In this document: positions 452 through 5,542 of the stretch, piece after piece | Numbering within the stretch: the stretch's first letter is position 1 | Layout of the letters: each line of letters starts with the position of its first letter | Assembly (NCBI GenBank): GCA_018262455.1 | Contig: JAGSPR010000418.1 | Location: forward strand, 1-8,398 | DNA: 8,398 nucleotides | Origin: Deltaproteobacteria bacterium | Lineage (GTDB): Bacteria; Myxococcota; Polyangia; Haliangiales; Haliangiaceae | Reading direction: 5' to 3' | Notes under the pieces: generated by a model | The model's input: the letters and a program-made list of their open reading frames with translations, nothing else | The model's database searches: none | Told to the model about the DNA's origin: nothing | Made by a program: the position numbers and the translations under genes

Positions 452-1813
452 TCAGAGGGTCTCGAGGAACGCGATCAGGGCGGCGCGATCGGAGTCGTCG
501 AGGTGGGTCCCCGCCGGATGACCGGGGATAGGTCCCGGTCCGAGCCGGCCCGCGGCGTATCCCGGTTGCAGACGTGCCGGCGAGATCAGCTCCGCCAGCG
601 AGGAGATCGAGCCGTCGTGAAGATACGGCGCGCCCTCGCCGACGCGCACGAGCGGAGGAACCCGGTACGTGCCGGTGCCACGCCCGCGCCCGGTGGCGAG
701 TGCCGGATTCGTCCCGATCGCCGCCGCCGCGATCGTGCGCCCGCCGTACGCCGCGTTCTCATGACAGCTCCGGCAATGCTCGTCGAACACCGCCGCGCCG
801 TGCCTGGCACTGGGGCCCGGACGGACCGCGCGCGCCGGTGGTTCGAGCGAGTACAAGTACATCGCGAGCGCCCACGCGAGTGCGCGCGGCGGCCGGATCA
901 GCGTGTGGTTGGAATCGGTCAGCTGGGTGTCCTGGCGGATCGCCAGCGCGAGTGGGCTGTCGTGCCGGATCGTCCCGGCCTGCGTCAGCCAGCGCTGATC
1001 ACGGACGCCCCACAGATCGGGAATCGTCACCGGATCCTCGTCGTCGTCCTCGGTGACATCCGCGCGCCCGGGGCCCCAGCTCGCCATCCGGCGCGCGAGC
1101 TGTGGATCGAGCGGCGCACCGGTCTCGAGGTGGAACGCGAGCCGCAGCCGGCCGTAGTCGAACGCTCGCCGCGCCGCACCCACCACCAGCGCGCCGTCCT
1201 TCACCGTCGTGTGGCAGATCGCGCACGTGATGCCCACCCGGGTCTCGCCATCGACGTTCTTGAACACGACCAGCCCGGGAACCCCGCCATCTGCCGTGCG
1301 CTCGACCCCGACGGCCGCGGCCACCTCCGGCCGGGTCAGCCCCCACTCCATGGCCACCTCGGCGCGCATCGGATACTCGAAGAACACGCGACGCCCGAGC
1401 GCCACCCAGCCGGCCATCGTCGTGGGCTCCTTGCCGTCCCACAGCGGCGCCGCGAGTGCGTCTGGAATCTCGCCGTGCGCGAGTCGAGCAGCGAGCGCGG
1501 CCGTCACCAGCTGTGCGCGTGGATTCCACGCGGGCAACCGGTCCCAGCCTGCCGAGCCGAGCCCGTACGAGGCCAGCCGCTGTCGCGAGTACAGGTTGCC
1601 GTGGTTGGTGAGCGAATGCTCGAGTGCCGCGCGCCGGTAGGGCGTGTCGTCGAGGAACCGCCTCGCTTCGCGGGCCATCCAGTCATCGGACCACGCGGCA
1701 GGCGACGCCGGCTCGCCACGACCACGCTCGTCAGGCTCGGGTGCCGGCCTGCTCGAGCATCCCCCGATCGCGGCAAGCACCGCGATCGTCGTCGGGAGGG
1801 CCACGCCGCGCAT
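452..1813 (-). CDS. Di-haem c-type cytochrome lipoprotein, RoxA / cytochrome c peroxidase-like
   Basis: This 453-residue exported redox protein starts at an ATG (1811-1813). The N-terminus is a lipoprotein signal ending in IGG-Cys19, followed by a Pro/Arg/Glu-rich linker, so it is probably membrane-anchored on the outer face. Two haem c attachment motifs are present: CAICH at 197-201 and CRSCH at 347-351. The C-terminal domain carries APYLHDGS (395-402) followed by a Leu-rich helix, as in the C-terminal domains of RoxA-like and di-haem peroxidase-like cytochromes. The N-terminal third has many Trp and Arg residues and a 'GRRVFFEYP' stretch before the first haem. An acidic cluster (TEDDDEDP) lies between the haems. 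RoxA itself, a secreted rubber oxygenase, is much longer, so I do not infer that activity; peroxidase, MauG-like oxidase or plain electron carrier are all possible. The gene is alone on its strand. Di-haem cytochrome is secure; the subfamily is not. Confidence 0.88.
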   Translation of the reverse strand: MRGVALPTTIAVLAAIGGCSSRPAPEPDERGRGEPASPAAWSDDWMAREARRFLDDTPYRRAALEHSLTNHGNLYSRQRLASYGLGSAGWDRLPAWNPRAQLVTAALAARLAHGEIPDALAAPLWDGKEPTTMAGWVALGRRVFFEYPMRAEVAMEWGLTRPEVAAAVGVERTADGGVPGLVVFKNVDGETRVGITCAICHTTVKDGALVVGAARRAFDYGRLRLAFHLETGAPLDPQLARRMASWGPGRADVTEDDDEDPVTIPDLWGVRDQRWLTQAGTIRHDSPLALAIRQDTQLTDSNHTLIRPPRALAWALAMYLYSLEPPARAVRPGPSARHGAAVFDEHCRSCHENAAYGGRTIAAAAIGTNPALATGRGRGTGTYRVPPLVRVGEGAPYLHDGSISSLAELISPARLQPGYAAGRLGPGPIPGHPAGTHLDDSDRAALIAFLETL

Positions 1814-1872: not shown

Positions 1873-1888
1873 AGGCATGCGTCTTGCT
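1873..1888 (+). promoter_or_regulatory. Candidate sigma-54 (-24/-12) promoter for the OmpA-like gene
   Basis: The 16 bases AGGCATGCGTCTTGCT match the sigma-54 consensus TGGCACGNNNNTTGCW at 10 of 12 fixed positions. GG (1874-1875) and GC (1886-1887) are exactly 10 bases apart, and the -12 half TTGCT is perfect. Initiation would fall near 1899, about 58 bases before the ATG at 1957. A short inverted repeat, GTCGA/TCGAC (1848-1863), lies just upstream and might be an activator site, but that is weak. This is inferred from pattern only. Confidence 0.55.
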
Positions 1889-1946
1889 GCTTGTTGATTC
1901 GTTCGATCACTCGCTGCTGCTCTCCCCCACGATCGACGTCGACCAC

Positions 1947-1951
1947 GGAGG
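1947..1951 (+). promoter_or_regulatory. Ribosome binding site fixing the OmpA-like start
   Basis: GGAGG lies 5 bases before the ATG at 1957. The same frame stays open upstream to a TTG at 1891, but that codon is only 3 bases past the predicted -12 element and so before the likely transcript start. The Shine-Dalgarno and the signal peptide that follows both favour 1957. Confidence 0.8.
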
Positions 1952-1956
1952 ACGTC

Positions 1957-2490
1957 ATGAGAGTCAATCTCGCAATCACTGCCTGCACGCTGCTGCTCGG
2001 AAGAATCGCCTCGGCGGGCTCGACCGGCTCGACCGGCGAGCCGGCCGAAGACGCGGCGCGCAACGTCACCGAGACCTACTTCGCATTCGATTCGTCGCTG
2101 CTCGATCCCGCGTCAGCTGCCAAGCTTGCCGCTGCCGCCGACGAGCTGCGGCAAAACCCCGACGCCAGGATCCTGGTGGCGGGCTTCGCCGATCCGATCG
2201 GAGCCTCGGACTACAACCTGGGGCTGTCGATCCGCCGCACCGAGGCGGTCCGCGAAGCGCTCGAGGGGATCGGCGTGAACCCCGATCGGATGGTGTTCGC
2301 GTTCTACGGCGAGGACGGCCCGCGACGAGAGAGCCATGCCCTCGATCGGCACGTCAGCATCCAGCTCACCCGGGAGCCGCTGCACGCCATCATCGGTCGC
2401 ACGCTGCCCCAGGCGACGGCGCTGCTGTGGAACAAGCCCGTCACCGCCGCCGAGCTCACAGCGCCCCCGATCCCCGTCGCGACGCGATGA
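1957..2490 (+). CDS. Exported OmpA-like peptidoglycan-binding domain protein
   Basis: The protein has 177 residues. Residues 1-20 form a signal peptide with a likely cut after ASA (20/21). A Gly/Ser/Thr-rich linker follows, then one OmpA C-terminal-type domain (about 38-140). Diagnostic parts are YFAFDSSLLD (41-50), 'VAGFADPIG' with Asp79 where the family has the GHTD aspartate, and YNLGLSIRR (86-94) matching the NxxLSxxR motif, with Arg94 at the conserved arginine. Asp and Arg are the pair that binds the diaminopimelate of peptidoglycan in this family, so cell-wall tethering is likely. There is no lipobox and no beta-barrel, so it would be a free periplasmic domain. About 37 residues after the domain are unassigned. 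It is divergent from the di-haem cytochrome and convergent with the sigma-54 regulator. A sigma-54-like promoter precedes it. Confidence 0.88.
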   Translation: MRVNLAITACTLLLGRIASAGSTGSTGEPAEDAARNVTETYFAFDSSLLDPASAAKLAAAADELRQNPDARILVAGFADPIGASDYNLGLSIRRTEAVREALEGIGVNPDRMVFAFYGEDGPRRESHALDRHVSIQLTREPLHAIIGRTLPQATALLWNKPVTAAELTAPPIPVATR

Positions 2491-2602
2491 CCGTCGACGA
2501 GCCCGCTGTGCCCGATCGACACATGGCCCACCCGGTGCGCGCCTTTGCGCTCGGTGCGAGATGTTCGAAGTCGAGGCACGGATCTCCGTCCATCGCGTTC
2601 AG

Positions 2603-2763
2603 CTAACCCCAGGGTTCGCCTGAGATGATCCCGAGATCGCGAGCCGCTTGTGCGAGGTCGAGGCGCAGCGACGAAACGCTACGGGCGGTAACGTGAGGAG
2701 CAGCAACGAAGAGATCGCGCAAGCGGCGACGCGAGGGTCAGCTCAGGTGAACCCTGGGGTTAG
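2603..2763. repeat. 161-bp imperfect palindrome, MITE-like inverted-repeat element
   Basis: Outer arms 2603-2631 and 2735-2763 are inverted copies: the outermost 22 bases differ at one position, and 29 bases differ at three. Further in, 2643-2655 pairs with 2715-2727 (12 of 13). At the apex CGCTAC (2677-2682) faces GTAACG (2688-2693) across a 5-base loop. All three arm pairs centre on 2683-2685, so the whole stretch could fold as one long hairpin. Each outer arm also holds its own small palindrome, AACCC-NN-GGGTT. The ends read CTAACCCC and GGGGTTAG, with a TA just inside each end that could be a target-site duplication. I see no coding capacity. It lies between two converging genes, and the regulator's stop codon (2760-2762) is inside the right arm. 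Alternatives are a structured RNA or a bidirectional terminator. Confidence 0.8.
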
Positions 2764-4337
2764 ACCAGGACGGCGTCTCGAGCGCGTCGCGAAACAGCAC
2801 CCTTCGCACCGGTTCGCTCGAGCACCGGAGGCGGCGACGGGCAGTCGGCGACGGCGTGCGGTTCGTTCGACGCCGGGGCCGCGTGGGCGGAGTGGTCGCT
2901 CGCCACGCCATCGCGCGAGGCCTCGAGCCTCCGGTGCAACGACCTGCGATCGATCCCGAGGATGCGCGCGGCGTGCGTCTTGTTCCCGCCGACGCCAGCG
3001 AGCACCTGGCGAACGTAGCGGCGTTCCAGCTTGCTGAGGGTGATCATCTCGCCCGGCGACTCGGTCGTGATCACGAGCTTCGAGATCTGGTGTTCCCGGA
3101 TCTTCTCCGCCAGATCCTCGACGGTGATCACGTCGAGCCGGCACAGCGCGACCGCGCGCTCCATGCAGTTCTCGAGCTCCCGGACGTTGCCCGGCCAGTC
3201 GTAATCCATCAGCCGACGCGCGGCGGGCCCCGAGAGGCCCTTGACCTGCTTGCTTGCTCGCCCCGCGATACGCGTCAGGAAGTACTGTGCGAGGAGAAGG
3301 ATGTCGCCCGCGCGTGCTCGCAGCGGCGGCACGGCGATCGCGACGACGTTGATCCGGTAGAACAAGTCCTCGCGGAACCGCTTCTCGTGGACCTCGGTCT
3401 CGAGGTCACGGTTGGTCGCGGTGATCACGCGAGCTTCGAACGGGACCTCGTCGTCGCCCCCGACTGGCCGCACCTTGCGCTCCTGGAGCACGCGCAACAG
3501 CTTGACCTGCATCTCGAGCGGCATTTCGGCGATCTCGTCGAGAAAGATCGTGCCGGAGCCTGCCTGCACGAACAGACCTGAGCGCGCTCGCTTGGCGTCG
3601 GTGAACGCGCCGCGCAGGTGACCGAACAGCTCGCTCTCGAGGAGCGAGGCTGGCATCGCCGCGCAGTTCACGGCCACGAACGGCTGATCGCGACGCGGCG
3701 ACAGGTGGTGAAGTGCCTTTGCGACGAGCTCCTTCCCGGTCCCGCTCTCGCCGGTGACGAGCACGGTCACGTCGCTGTCCGCGACCCGACGCACCATCTC
3801 GAGCGTCTGGCGGATCGCAGGGCTATCGCCTGCGATCCCCCCGATCGGGAGGTCCCGGTCCGCGGCCGACCTCAGCCGCCTGACCTCGCGCTTGAGGGTC
3901 AAGTGCTCGATCGCGCGGCTGACCGCGATCTCGAGCGCCTCCACCTTCACCGGTTTGGTGAGGTAGTCATAGGCGCCGCCGCGGATCGCAGCGATCGCGG
4001 TCTCGATCCCGGTCTGACAGGTGAGCACGATCGGCAACAGCTCCGGGTGGCGTTCGCGGAGCTGCTGGCACAGCTCGATGCCCGTCATCCCTGGCATGAG
4101 AACGTCGGTCACGACGACGTCGGCCGGCGTCGTGCGGAGGTGTTCGAGCGCGGCGTACCCCGACGCGACGGCATCGGCATGGAAGCCACGATCCCGAAGA
4201 ATGTCGCGGAGCAGCCACGCGCTGTCGTCATCATCGTCGACGACCAGGATGGTTCCGGTCACGTTGGGTCGAGGCCGCTTTGTCGGCGCGCGGTCATCTG
4301 CAACAGGGACTGCATGCAGGCGATTTGCGTCGCTCAT
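2760..4337 (-). CDS. Sigma-54-dependent response regulator (NtrC family, orphan)
   Basis: The 525-residue protein has three modules. The receiver domain (about 28-148) has the acidic run Asp34-38, phospho-acceptor Asp78 (VVVTD), Thr106 and Lys128. The AAA+ domain (about 165-400) has Walker A GESGTGKE (196-203), the sigma-54 contact loop GAFTDA (243-248, usually GAFTGA), Walker B GTIFLDE (262-268), and arginines 322 and 328 in FREDLFYR. The Fis-type helix-turn-helix is at about 438-475 (NKTHAARILGIDRRSLHRRL). Once phosphorylated it should bind upstream sites and drive open-complex formation by sigma-54 RNA polymerase. The frame is open to an ATG at 4586, but the extra 83 residues are Trp/Arg-rich and unlike any receiver leader, so I chose 4337, although its ribosome binding site is weak. 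No histidine kinase is nearby. An unconserved tail of about 50 residues follows the helix-turn-helix and ends inside the 2603-2763 repeat. Confidence 0.93.
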   Translation of the reverse strand: MSDANRLHAVPVADDRAPTKRPRPNVTGTILVVDDDDDSAWLLRDILRDRGFHADAVASGYAALEHLRTTPADVVVTDVLMPGMTGIELCQQLRERHPELLPIVLTCQTGIETAIAAIRGGAYDYLTKPVKVEALEIAVSRAIEHLTLKREVRRLRSAADRDLPIGGIAGDSPAIRQTLEMVRRVADSDVTVLVTGESGTGKELVAKALHHLSPRRDQPFVAVNCAAMPASLLESELFGHLRGAFTDAKRARSGLFVQAGSGTIFLDEIAEMPLEMQVKLLRVLQERKVRPVGGDDEVPFEARVITATNRDLETEVHEKRFREDLFYRINVVAIAVPPLRARAGDILLLAQYFLTRIAGRASKQVKGLSGPAARRLMDYDWPGNVRELENCMERAVALCRLDVITVEDLAEKIREHQISKLVITTESPGEMITLSKLERRYVRQVLAGVGGNKTHAARILGIDRRSLHRRLEASRDGVASDHSAHAAPASNEPHAVADCPSPPPVLERTGAKGAVSRRARDAVLV

Positions 4338-4354
4338 CGCCGCGTGGTGATGCA

Positions 4355-4368
4355 GCTGGCGCGCCAGC
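4355..4368. promoter_or_regulatory. 14-bp perfect palindrome upstream of the regulator gene
   Basis: GCTGGCGCGCCAGC is a perfect dyad 17 bases upstream of the chosen ATG at 4337. Its size suits a Fis-type dimeric site, so it could be an autoregulatory operator or an upstream activator site shared with the divergent gene. In such GC-rich DNA a chance palindrome is also quite possible. Confidence 0.3.
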
Positions 4369-4631
4369 CAACGCCACGAGTCGGAGCGCATCGGTGATCC
4401 ACAACAGGTCCAGCAACATCGGCCCACGGACGTCCAGCCGCCCTCGGCCGACGCGCGTGCAGAACCCGGCGAAGCAGCCGAAGTCCCCACTGGCCAAGCA
4501 GGCGCCGAGATCCAGACAAACAGCCGGCGCCGGATCACGAGCCCGGCCGGAAGTGGCTCGCGCTGCGCCTGAACCCCGCTCGCCATGCGCCCCGAGGTGC
4601 GCGAACCTTGCTCGGGCGCCCGAAGATCTCA

Positions 4632-4647
4632 CGGTCCCTTGCTTGCA
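4632..4647 (+). promoter_or_regulatory. Weak candidate sigma-54 promoter for the LEA-like gene
   Basis: CGGTCCCTTGCTTGCA has GG (4633-4634) and GC (4645-4646) exactly 10 bases apart and a perfect TTGCA -12 half. The -24 half keeps only GG and one C of TGGCACG. It lies about 50 bases before the ATG at 4697, a sensible leader length. On its own it would be dismissed; the adjacent sigma-54 activator and the better matches at neighbouring genes give it some weight. Confidence 0.3.
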
Positions 4648-4696
4648 GTAGCTCGAGGCCACGGGGGCCAAATGGCTCGCAGGAACAGGAGGTCGT

Positions 4697-4912
4697 ATGG
4701 GAACCAAGGACAGGACGAAGGACAAGATCGATCTGGCGGCCGTGAAGGCCAGAACCGCCGTCCACAACGTCATGGACAAGACGTCGGATGCAGCGCACAC
4801 CGTCGGCGAGAAGATCAAGGACGCCGCGGCCACGGTCGGCGAGAAGATCAAGGACGCTGGCGCGGCAGTGAAGGACGCCGGCAAGGATATCAAGCGCAAG
4901 ATCGAACCCTGA
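4697..4912 (+). CDS. Small LEA-like hydrophilic repeat protein
   Basis: This 71-residue protein is dominated by Lys, Asp and Ala with almost no aromatic residues, no Cys, no signal peptide and no membrane segment, so it is probably cytoplasmic. It contains a repeated 11-residue unit, TVGEKIKDAAA (35-45) and TVGEKIKDAGA (46-56), and a decayed third copy, AVKDAGKDIKR (57-67). Such 11-residue periods form amphipathic helices and recall group 3 LEA proteins and small bacterial stress proteins that are disordered until drying or membrane contact. The start is well supported: AGGAGG at 4687-4692, four bases before the ATG. It is divergent from the sigma-54 regulator and convergent with the Tyr/Trp-rich lipoprotein. 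A desiccation or envelope-stress role is inferred from composition only. Confidence 0.85.
   Translation: MGTKDRTKDKIDLAAVKARTAVHNVMDKTSDAAHTVGEKIKDAAATVGEKIKDAGAAVKDAGKDIKRKIEP
4799..4864 (+). repeat. Two tandem 33-bp units inside the LEA-like gene
   Basis: Units 4799-4831 and 4832-4864 both begin AC(C/G)GTCGGCGAGAAGATC and differ at only a few bases, mostly near their ends. Each encodes one 11-residue helical unit. The near identity, including synonymous positions, points to a recent in-frame duplication, so copy number may differ between strains. Confidence 0.85.
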
Positions 4913-4932
4913 GGGCCGCCGAGGCTCAACCC

Positions 4933-4966
4933 TGGTTTGCGCACCCATGGTTTGCGAATCACGCAA
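4933..4966. repeat. Short direct repeat and small hairpin after the LEA-like gene
   Basis: TGGTTTGCG occurs at 4933-4941 and 4948-4956. The second copy runs into TTGCG-AATCA-CGCAA (4952-4966), a 5-bp stem with a 5-base loop. It lies 40 bases past the LEA-like stop, between converging genes, so it may help end transcription. The stem is short and has no T-tract. I see nothing else in the 225-base gap up to 5137. Confidence 0.25.
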
Positions 4967-5137
4967 GGGGTTCGGCTCGGTGCGATCTCGCGGCACATCC
5001 TGCGCGAAACTGCATCGCGGGCCGGGCGCGTTGATCTGTTCGGGCCGTGCGCACGAACGGCGTCGACTCGGCGACGCAGGTCACGAGCCGGTCACCAGAC
5101 CGATGCGCATGACCTTCGTCACCACGGAGCAAAACAA

Positions 5138-5500
5138 CTAGCGGCGGTGATCGCGGCGAACCGGAGCGCGGTTGCCACGGTTCTCGCGCGCCACGTAGCC
5201 GTGGGGGCGGTAGTGGCGATACGCGCCGGGCGTGTTGATCCGGCCGACCACCACCGGCGGATTCGCGTAGACCCAGCCGCGGTTGTAGTAGTTCGACCGA
5301 TACCAGCGGCCGCCGTCATTCCGCCAGTAGTAGTTGTTCGAGTAGAAGATCGGCTCGTCGTAGTCGACGATCACGGAGACGCCGGGCGAGATCTCGACGA
5401 GATCCGGCGTGTACGCGACGGCCGTGACTCGATACTCGCCGGAGCCGATACAGCCTGCGGTGAGCGCGGCCGAGGTCAGCAACGCGGGGATGATACGCAT
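5138..5500 (-). CDS. Small Tyr/Trp-rich lipoprotein of unknown function
   Basis: The 120-residue product has a lipoprotein signal ending in LTAG-Cys17, so it should be lipidated and membrane-anchored. The mature part has a beta-like segment (EYRVTAVAYTPDLVEISPGVSVIVDYDEP, 22-50 in two overlapping strands) and then a very aromatic stretch (51-79) with the pattern YYWR-DGGRWYRS-YY-RGWVY. It ends in a basic tail rich in Arg, His and Tyr (about 94-120). Short aromatic envelope proteins of this kind are common in myxobacteria and proteobacteria, but I cannot assign a function. The frame extends to a TTG at 5515, but the GGAGG there is the ribosome binding site of the ATG at 5500. It is convergent with the LEA-like gene and has the best sigma-54 promoter match in the window. 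Confidence 0.85.
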   Translation of the reverse strand: MRIIPALLTSAALTAGCIGSGEYRVTAVAYTPDLVEISPGVSVIVDYDEPIFYSNNYYWRNDGGRWYRSNYYNRGWVYANPPVVVGRINTPGAYRHYRPHGYVARENRGNRAPVRRDHRR

Positions 5501-5508
5501 AAGGATTT

Positions 5509-5513
5509 CCTCC
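5509..5513 (-). promoter_or_regulatory. Ribosome binding site fixing the lipoprotein start
   Basis: On the - strand GGAGG lies 8 bases before the ATG at 5500. It sits within the first codons of the alternative TTG start at 5515, so that longer start is unlikely. Confidence 0.75.
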
Positions 5514-5526
5514 AATCGCTAGTGCA

Positions 5527-5542
5527 CGCAGGTCGCGTGCCA
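5527..5542 (-). promoter_or_regulatory. Strong sigma-54 (-24/-12) promoter for the Tyr/Trp-rich lipoprotein
   Basis: Read on the - strand, TGGCACGCGACCTGCG has a perfect TGGCACG -24 element. GC is at the -12 position with the required 10 bases between GG and GC. Only the first T of TTGC and the final A/T deviate. Initiation would fall near 5516, giving a very short leader (about 16 bases) that just contains the GGAGG. This is the best sigma-54 match in the window. Confidence 0.72.

Follow-up and report, generated by a model that had tools for sequence, protein, structure and literature searches.

The window, a stretch of 8,398 nucleotides (nt) from a Deltaproteobacteria bacterium (Haliangiaceae, Myxococcota; GenBank assembly GCA_018262455.1, contig JAGSPR010000418.1), carries an NtrC-type sigma-54 activator gene flanked by three small genes, with -24/-12 promoter elements ahead of them. 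By sequence and position three of these sigma-54-type promoters (those of the OmpA-like, lipoprotein and activator genes) look real, whereas their grouping under one activator looks mostly wrong. The OmpA-domain, lipoprotein and activator genes are probably separate members of a sigma-54 regulon scattered over the chromosome, and their grouping is probably local to the window. The part worth following is the leaderless spacing of such elements. In this family the messenger RNAs (mRNAs) of sigma-54 genes would, with reasonable probability, be leaderless genome-wide, with an activator-gated promoter coupled to translation that is free of a ribosome site, and the window activator would be one such gene. 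The genes and elements concerned are listed below, with mismatches counted against the consensus TGGCACGN4TTGCW.

1873-1888, plus strand: -24/-12 element AGGCATGCGTCTTGCT, two mismatches, 68 nt ahead of the OmpA-like ATG
1957-2490, plus strand: OmpA-domain protein of 177 amino acids (PF00691, E 2.3e-16), its ATG preceded by a GGAGG ribosome site
2760-4337, minus strand: NtrC-type sigma-54 activator with receiver domain, AAA+ domain with GAFTDA loop and Fis-type helix-turn-helix (HTH), starting at ATG 4337 or GTG 4262
4351-4366, minus strand: -24/-12 element TGGCGCGCCAGCTGCA, two mismatches, preceding the activator
4632-4647, plus strand: weak -24/-12-like element CGGTCCCTTGCTTGCA, four mismatches, 49 nt ahead of the Lys/Ala-rich gene
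4697-4912, plus strand: Lys/Ala-rich small protein of 71 amino acids, dubbed LEA-like, with no LEA family match
5138-5500, minus strand: Tyr/Trp-rich lipoprotein of 120 amino acids, with a lipobox in TSAALTAGC (by eye) and no Pfam family
5527-5542, minus strand: -24/-12 element TGGCACGCGACCTGCG, two mismatches, 26 nt ahead of the lipoprotein ATG, with a GGAGGA ribosome site in between

The elements and their positions are plain observations. The first-pass annotation had reported GG-N10-GC elements before the OmpA-like, lipoprotein and LEA-like genes, and they are present at the places and on the strands it gave. Its grading suits the OmpA-like element ('good', two mismatches) and the LEA-like element ('weak', four), whereas 'near perfect' is generous for the lipoprotein element with its two mismatches; the element before the activator had been overlooked. 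A loose scan of the window (up to three mismatches, any position) gives 13 matches against 12.1 expected, which is the chance level. With GG and GC fixed and at most two mismatches there are three sites, against 0.71 in shuffled sequence, and 5 of 200 shuffles reach three. Such sites lie 8-90 nt upstream of three of the eight gene starts (the gene cut by the window's left edge is excluded), and none of 1000 shuffles matches this. The predicted leaders, all with ribosome sites, are about 15 nt for the lipoprotein gene (offset 26), 38 nt for the LEA-like gene (offset 49) and 57 nt for the OmpA-like gene (offset 68). From the activator element, ATG 4337 lies at 13 nt, the leaderless spacing, and GTG 4262 at 88 nt.

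The elements recur at homologous genes, most clearly for the lipoprotein, relatives of which occur in all seven activator-bearing genomes and in 22 of 30 family genomes. An element (at most three mismatches, ATG 8-90 nt after it) precedes 23 of 33 lipoprotein homologues, or 21 of 31 without two duplicates, compared with 37 of 573 control genes (P 2e-18; about two of 31 expected); the homologue scan accepted any in-frame ATG and is hence somewhat more permissive than the control. An earlier subset gave 7 of 11. In the homologue at locus L218 the element reads TGGCACGCGACGTGCT against TGGCACGCGACCTGCG in the window, and both are followed by a short leader with a ribosome site. OmpA-domain homologues have an element in 12 of 30 fetched loci, including five of the six best, where about two are expected at the control rate; five of the 30 gave no match in the first scan and were scanned by open frame, which added L107 to the other 11. 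Relatives of the LEA-like protein are found in two of seven genomes (L091, L092), both with weak elements of three mismatches. Sigma-54 itself is found in 27 of the 30 family genomes, and the three without it may be incomplete. The elements are kept at homologous genes, while the gene cluster around the activator is not.

At E 1e-5 or better, 326 proteins are related to the lipoprotein. Among the 120 listed, none has a Pfam domain, the names given are 'hypothetical protein', and the sources, where named, are Kofleriaceae, Polyangiales or soil metagenome.

The leaderless spacing is seen in 771,251 bases of the family genome G001. Of the 76 elements there with at most two mismatches, 27 are followed by an ATG at 12 nt (14 sites), 13 nt (9) or 14 nt (4); other offsets mostly hold 0-3 sites, apart from a minor further peak at 38-40. 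The reversed consensus, used as a control in the same genome (113 sites), gives 0, 1 and 0 at these three offsets. With a looser core, 349 kb of other loci give 16 sites at 12-14 nt and 0-3 in neighbouring bins, these loci being a non-random set fetched for the genes in question. Sigma-54 transcripts start about 11-13 nt past the element, and therefore the predicted transcript begins at the ATG. In a start-centred set of 704 G001 genes, ribosome sites are present in none of 11 genes with leaderless spacing and in 7 of 12 with a spacing of 17-60 nt. In the same set TANNNT stands 6-8 nt ahead of the ATG in 19, 17 and 16 genes, and ribosome sites occur in only 20%, a low estimate since translation does not always begin at the first ATG. 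Leaderless genes thus seem to be common in the lineage at large rather than peculiar to sigma-54.

Across the family, the pattern GGCAYGN5TGCT followed by ATG after 12-14 nt is counted 1098 times in 30 genomes, against 120 times after 22-24 nt, with an excess in all 30. In 33 other genomes the counts are 39 and 34, with an excess in 14; these were hand-picked from activator-match loci (Pseudomonas, Desulfo-type, Acidobacteria, a Pirellulaceae and others), and three of them (L028, L034, L070) belong to the same phylum. In an even sample of 282 genomes across the phylum, at least 20 sites at 12-14 nt occur in 13 (tallied by eye), with 22-24 nt counts of 2 to 12. Within the window the leaderless spacing fits the activator alone (ATG 4337, 13 nt). 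It seems reasonably probable that the leaderless sigma-54 set would cover surface lipoproteins, OmpA- and BON-domain proteins and, by eye, some repair and metabolic genes. A different fixed architecture is seen in four other Myxococcota (G042, G047, G163, G211), where elements stand 22-24 nt before the ATG with a strict AGGAGGT ribosome site, for example TGCTC...CAGGAGGTCCCATG.

The activator contains Response_reg, Sigma54_activat and HTH_8 in this order, all above curated cut-offs, which bears out its earlier naming as an NtrC-family activator at 2760-4337. Its best NCBIfam scores are to AtoC, NtrC, the PEP-CTERM regulator and ZraR, and of the 121 families that it matches, the 25 shown all give scores under the curated cut-off. 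The contact loop is GAFTDA and not GAFTGA in the window activator and in the ten loci checked (L001-L009, L012), and the recognition helix is nearly the same in the window activator and its orthologues. Its ten nearest counterparts in the genome collection share 77-82% identity with it and come from metagenome genomes titled Kofleriaceae, Myxococcales or Deltaproteobacteria. The orthologues have their start at a GTG that corresponds to 4262, which is 88 nt past the element, so the window activator may start at either codon. An element precedes the activator or its DUF1328 co-gene at seven orthologous loci (L001, L002, L004, L005, L006, L011, L013). The window activator has no adjacent kinase gene, whereas orthologues such as those at L001 and L003 precede a receiver gene, which at L003 is confirmed to have HisKA and HATPase domains. 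Neighbours of the orthologues include DUF1328, low-affinity iron permease, LPG-synthase-like, BON, receiver-kinase and Ser/Thr kinase genes, named from nine representative proteins scanned, three of which have no match. Several of these genes have an element close upstream, DUF1328-activator operons among them. At L004 3100, L011 5748 and L013 5801 there stands, 8-9 nt past the element, ATGCATAACC(A/G)TAGGAGA, a micro-open reading frame of 6-7 codons that overlaps the DUF1328 ribosome site.

In the arrangement proposed here, the lipoprotein, OmpA-domain and activator genes would each have their own sigma-54 promoter. Sigma-54 polymerase would wait at the GG/GC element until a kinase-phosphorylated NtrC-type activator remodels it, and the activator is probably autoregulated. 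Transcription from the elements, its dependence on sigma-54 and the autoregulation are inferred. The OmpA and lipoprotein promoters could be fired by any of many activators.

Several observations weigh against this dispersed regulon. No element lies within the limits used at 10 of 31 lipoprotein and 18 of 30 OmpA loci, many of the latter being distant paralogues with unsure starts, and the LEA-like element is weak. Over the whole of G001 the strict pattern does not exceed its reversed control in number (23 against 37), and only its position relative to genes is enriched. OmpA-domain genes stand within about 1.5 kb of a sigma-54 activator in 9 of 30 fetched loci, and in four of the paired loci (L098, L107, L108, L110) the OmpA gene has an element 13-28 nt before an ATG, so that this kind of gene is not paired with an activator purely by accident. 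Paralogous activators are present at distances of about 1.8 and 3.6 kb from two lipoprotein homologues (G009:C655, G018:C277), and several loci are short contigs in which longer-range linkage could be missed.

The G001 count and the chance-level yield of loose scans are what would be expected if the elements were chance matches in GC-rich DNA. The positional enrichment at gene starts and the recurrence at homologous genes in other genomes make that explanation highly improbable. The proposal of the first-pass annotation, that its neighbours (the whole trio or, at a minimum, the OmpA-domain gene) form a local envelope regulon driven by the window activator, draws on their proximity, the good elements that two of the three have, and the BON, LPG-type and DUF1328 genes with elements beside the orthologues. 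It also draws on the pairing of OmpA-domain genes with activators, found in 9 of 30 loci against 106 of 5000 random 3.3-kb windows of G001 (2%) with an activator (P 8e-9, though the pairs are not independent, several being the same pair in different genomes). Pairs of an OmpA gene with an activator recur in the family, and the presence of OmpA genes beside other sigma-54 activators therefore makes a local regulon slightly likelier and a dispersed one slightly less so. The paired OmpA proteins are, however, distant relatives (28-34% identical), with activators 42-47% identical to that of the window, and no activator adjoins the OmpA relatives at the five closest loci (L093-L096, L100); in the window itself the two genes are convergent. 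The cluster is not conserved around this activator. The 14 best activator loci contain no match to the eight remaining window proteins, several of the contigs being short. Among 44 activator loci, orthologues and paralogues together, an OmpA match occurs in two (paralogues at L142 and L144, 53-54% identical), and the lipoprotein, the LEA-like protein, the cytochromes, the oxidase and two other proteins have no match. No sigma-54 activator lies within 1.5 kb of 30 lipoprotein or two LEA-like loci. Five relatives encode 57, 75, 70, 68 and 62 sigma-54 activators, and paralogues of the window activator abound. With no cluster conservation, so many competing activators, no significant shared dyad in the window and a weak LEA-like element, one activator over three genes finds no backing, and a local regulon is unlikely.

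A separate observation concerns L102, L103, L104, L113 and L116 (G004, G002, G005, G006 and G003), where the OmpA-domain gene is divergent from a receiver-type activator 42-44% identical to that of the window; no element is found ahead of these five OmpA genes.

A narrower proposal is that the activator controls itself and the lipoprotein gene through an upstream dyad near CACMGMGCGC-N2-GCGCKCKGTG, the one candidate dyad tested. Orthologous activator promoters and BON/LPG-type promoters served as its source, inspected by eye, and by construction 11 of 13 source promoters score 15-19 of 20; the other two, at L002 and L006, score 14 and are absent from later scoring, and scores of 12-15 are seen in 11 further promoters of those loci. 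A score of at least 16 occurs in 4 of 21 lipoprotein-homologue promoters against 0.385 in their own shuffles, with none of 200 shuffles reaching four, and the G001 lipoprotein promoter scores 17, equal to its DUF1328-activator promoter, which is a source of the dyad. This reading is post hoc, however, and 14 of the 21 lipoprotein homologues score below 15. No promoter among 11 OmpA and two LEA-like homologues reaches 16. The four window promoters score 12, 13, 14 and 12, no better than control genes, with the lipoprotein promoter at 14 (reached by 25% of controls) and the activator promoter at 12, so that no significant shared enhancer is seen in the window. This activator may control the lipoprotein gene in some relatives, and for the window such control is conjectural; control through this dyad of both genes together is doubtful.

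Other candidate enhancers were rejected. An expectation-maximisation search returned three differing motifs, the best scoring 74.8 at width 22 against 56-68 in four shuffled sets. A related palindrome core, near A.GGCG..CGCC.T, came up at three widths and scored 71.7 against 30.3 and 36.8 (resampled, width 22); it was set aside because its best sites are weak and scattered 0-169 nt from the element, its inputs are partly orthologous and its null is a different model. Dyad counting gave GC-rich palindromes of doubtful meaning.

The window also contains a second cytochrome-like protein, a 206-amino-acid protein, a multicopper oxidase and the following features.

452-1813, minus strand: cytochrome c-type protein
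2603-2763, no strand: 161-nt hairpin between the convergent OmpA and activator genes, with outer arms 2603-2631 and 2735-2763 that are 90% complementary

The hairpin folds with a z-score of -10.7 (165 nt folded), and the stop codon of the activator falls within its end. Its ends read TA-ACCCCAGG...CCTGGGGT-TA and resemble those of a small mobile element. It may have replaced the original end of the activator gene and a downstream kinase. No full copy is present among the blastn matches listed for about 2.0 Mb of fetched DNA, and the end motif is absent from 235 loci and from the viral collection. The hairpin is an adjoining feature outside the regulon. Searches of the window for sigma-70 promoters and Rfam families each give no match. 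The OmpA-like protein fails the Pal equivalog (TIGR02802 score 65.3 against a cut-off of 125.35), and no lipobox is seen by eye in its signal peptide. No LEA family is among the profile matches of the 71-amino-acid protein, and none of these is above cut-off.

What began as a single odd cluster becomes a rule that can be tested across the family. If sigma-54 transcripts do start at the AUG in this lineage, a promoter class that activators control tightly would also determine how its mRNAs are translated, and sequence alone would reveal gene starts and regulons in poorly studied soil bacteria. The analysis also yields a list of envelope genes as candidates for rpoN dependence. Among the titles listed in the open PMC literature, with subscription papers outside its scope, none announces leaderless sigma-54 genes, and there is no match for Kofleriaceae with sigma-54 or for leaderless genes with translation initiation and Deltaproteobacteria.

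The window activator resembles two-component activators of the NtrC, AtoC and ZraR types in the order of receiver, AAA+ sigma-54 and Fis-type HTH domains. It differs from them in having GAFTDA for GAFTGA and no kinase gene beside it in the window. The envelope theme proposed for this locus holds as far as sigma-54 promoters lie before envelope-type genes and recur at their homologues, and fails as a compact group under a single activator. Nor is it 'apparently undescribed', since sigma-54 has already been linked to the envelope in print, in the 'bacterial exterior' regulons of Francke et al. 2011, going by the parts available of that source (PMC3162934). Like those regulons, the sigma-54 elements of the window adjoin lipoprotein and envelope genes. 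Unlike in the available parts of that paper, the same gene families are here followed across one lineage, and many of the promoters have leaderless spacing.

Leaderless genes of Actinobacteria and Deinococcus have a -10 box 6-8 nt before the start. Leaderless mRNAs also occur in Sinorhizobium and Bradyrhizobium (PMC3616915, PMC4842269), the Bradyrhizobium set having an extended -10 motif (TGnTA), as given in the portions available of these reports. Leptospira has many leaderless mRNAs and also sigma-54 sites, and the two are not joined in the available portion of PMC5243855. The predicted leaderless genes of this family share with the actinobacterial, Deinococcus and rhizobial ones a promoter at a fixed short distance from the ATG and no ribosome site, and G001 has its TANNNT at 6-8 nt as well. 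What sets this family apart, as far as those sources go, is its promoter class, which is -24/-12.

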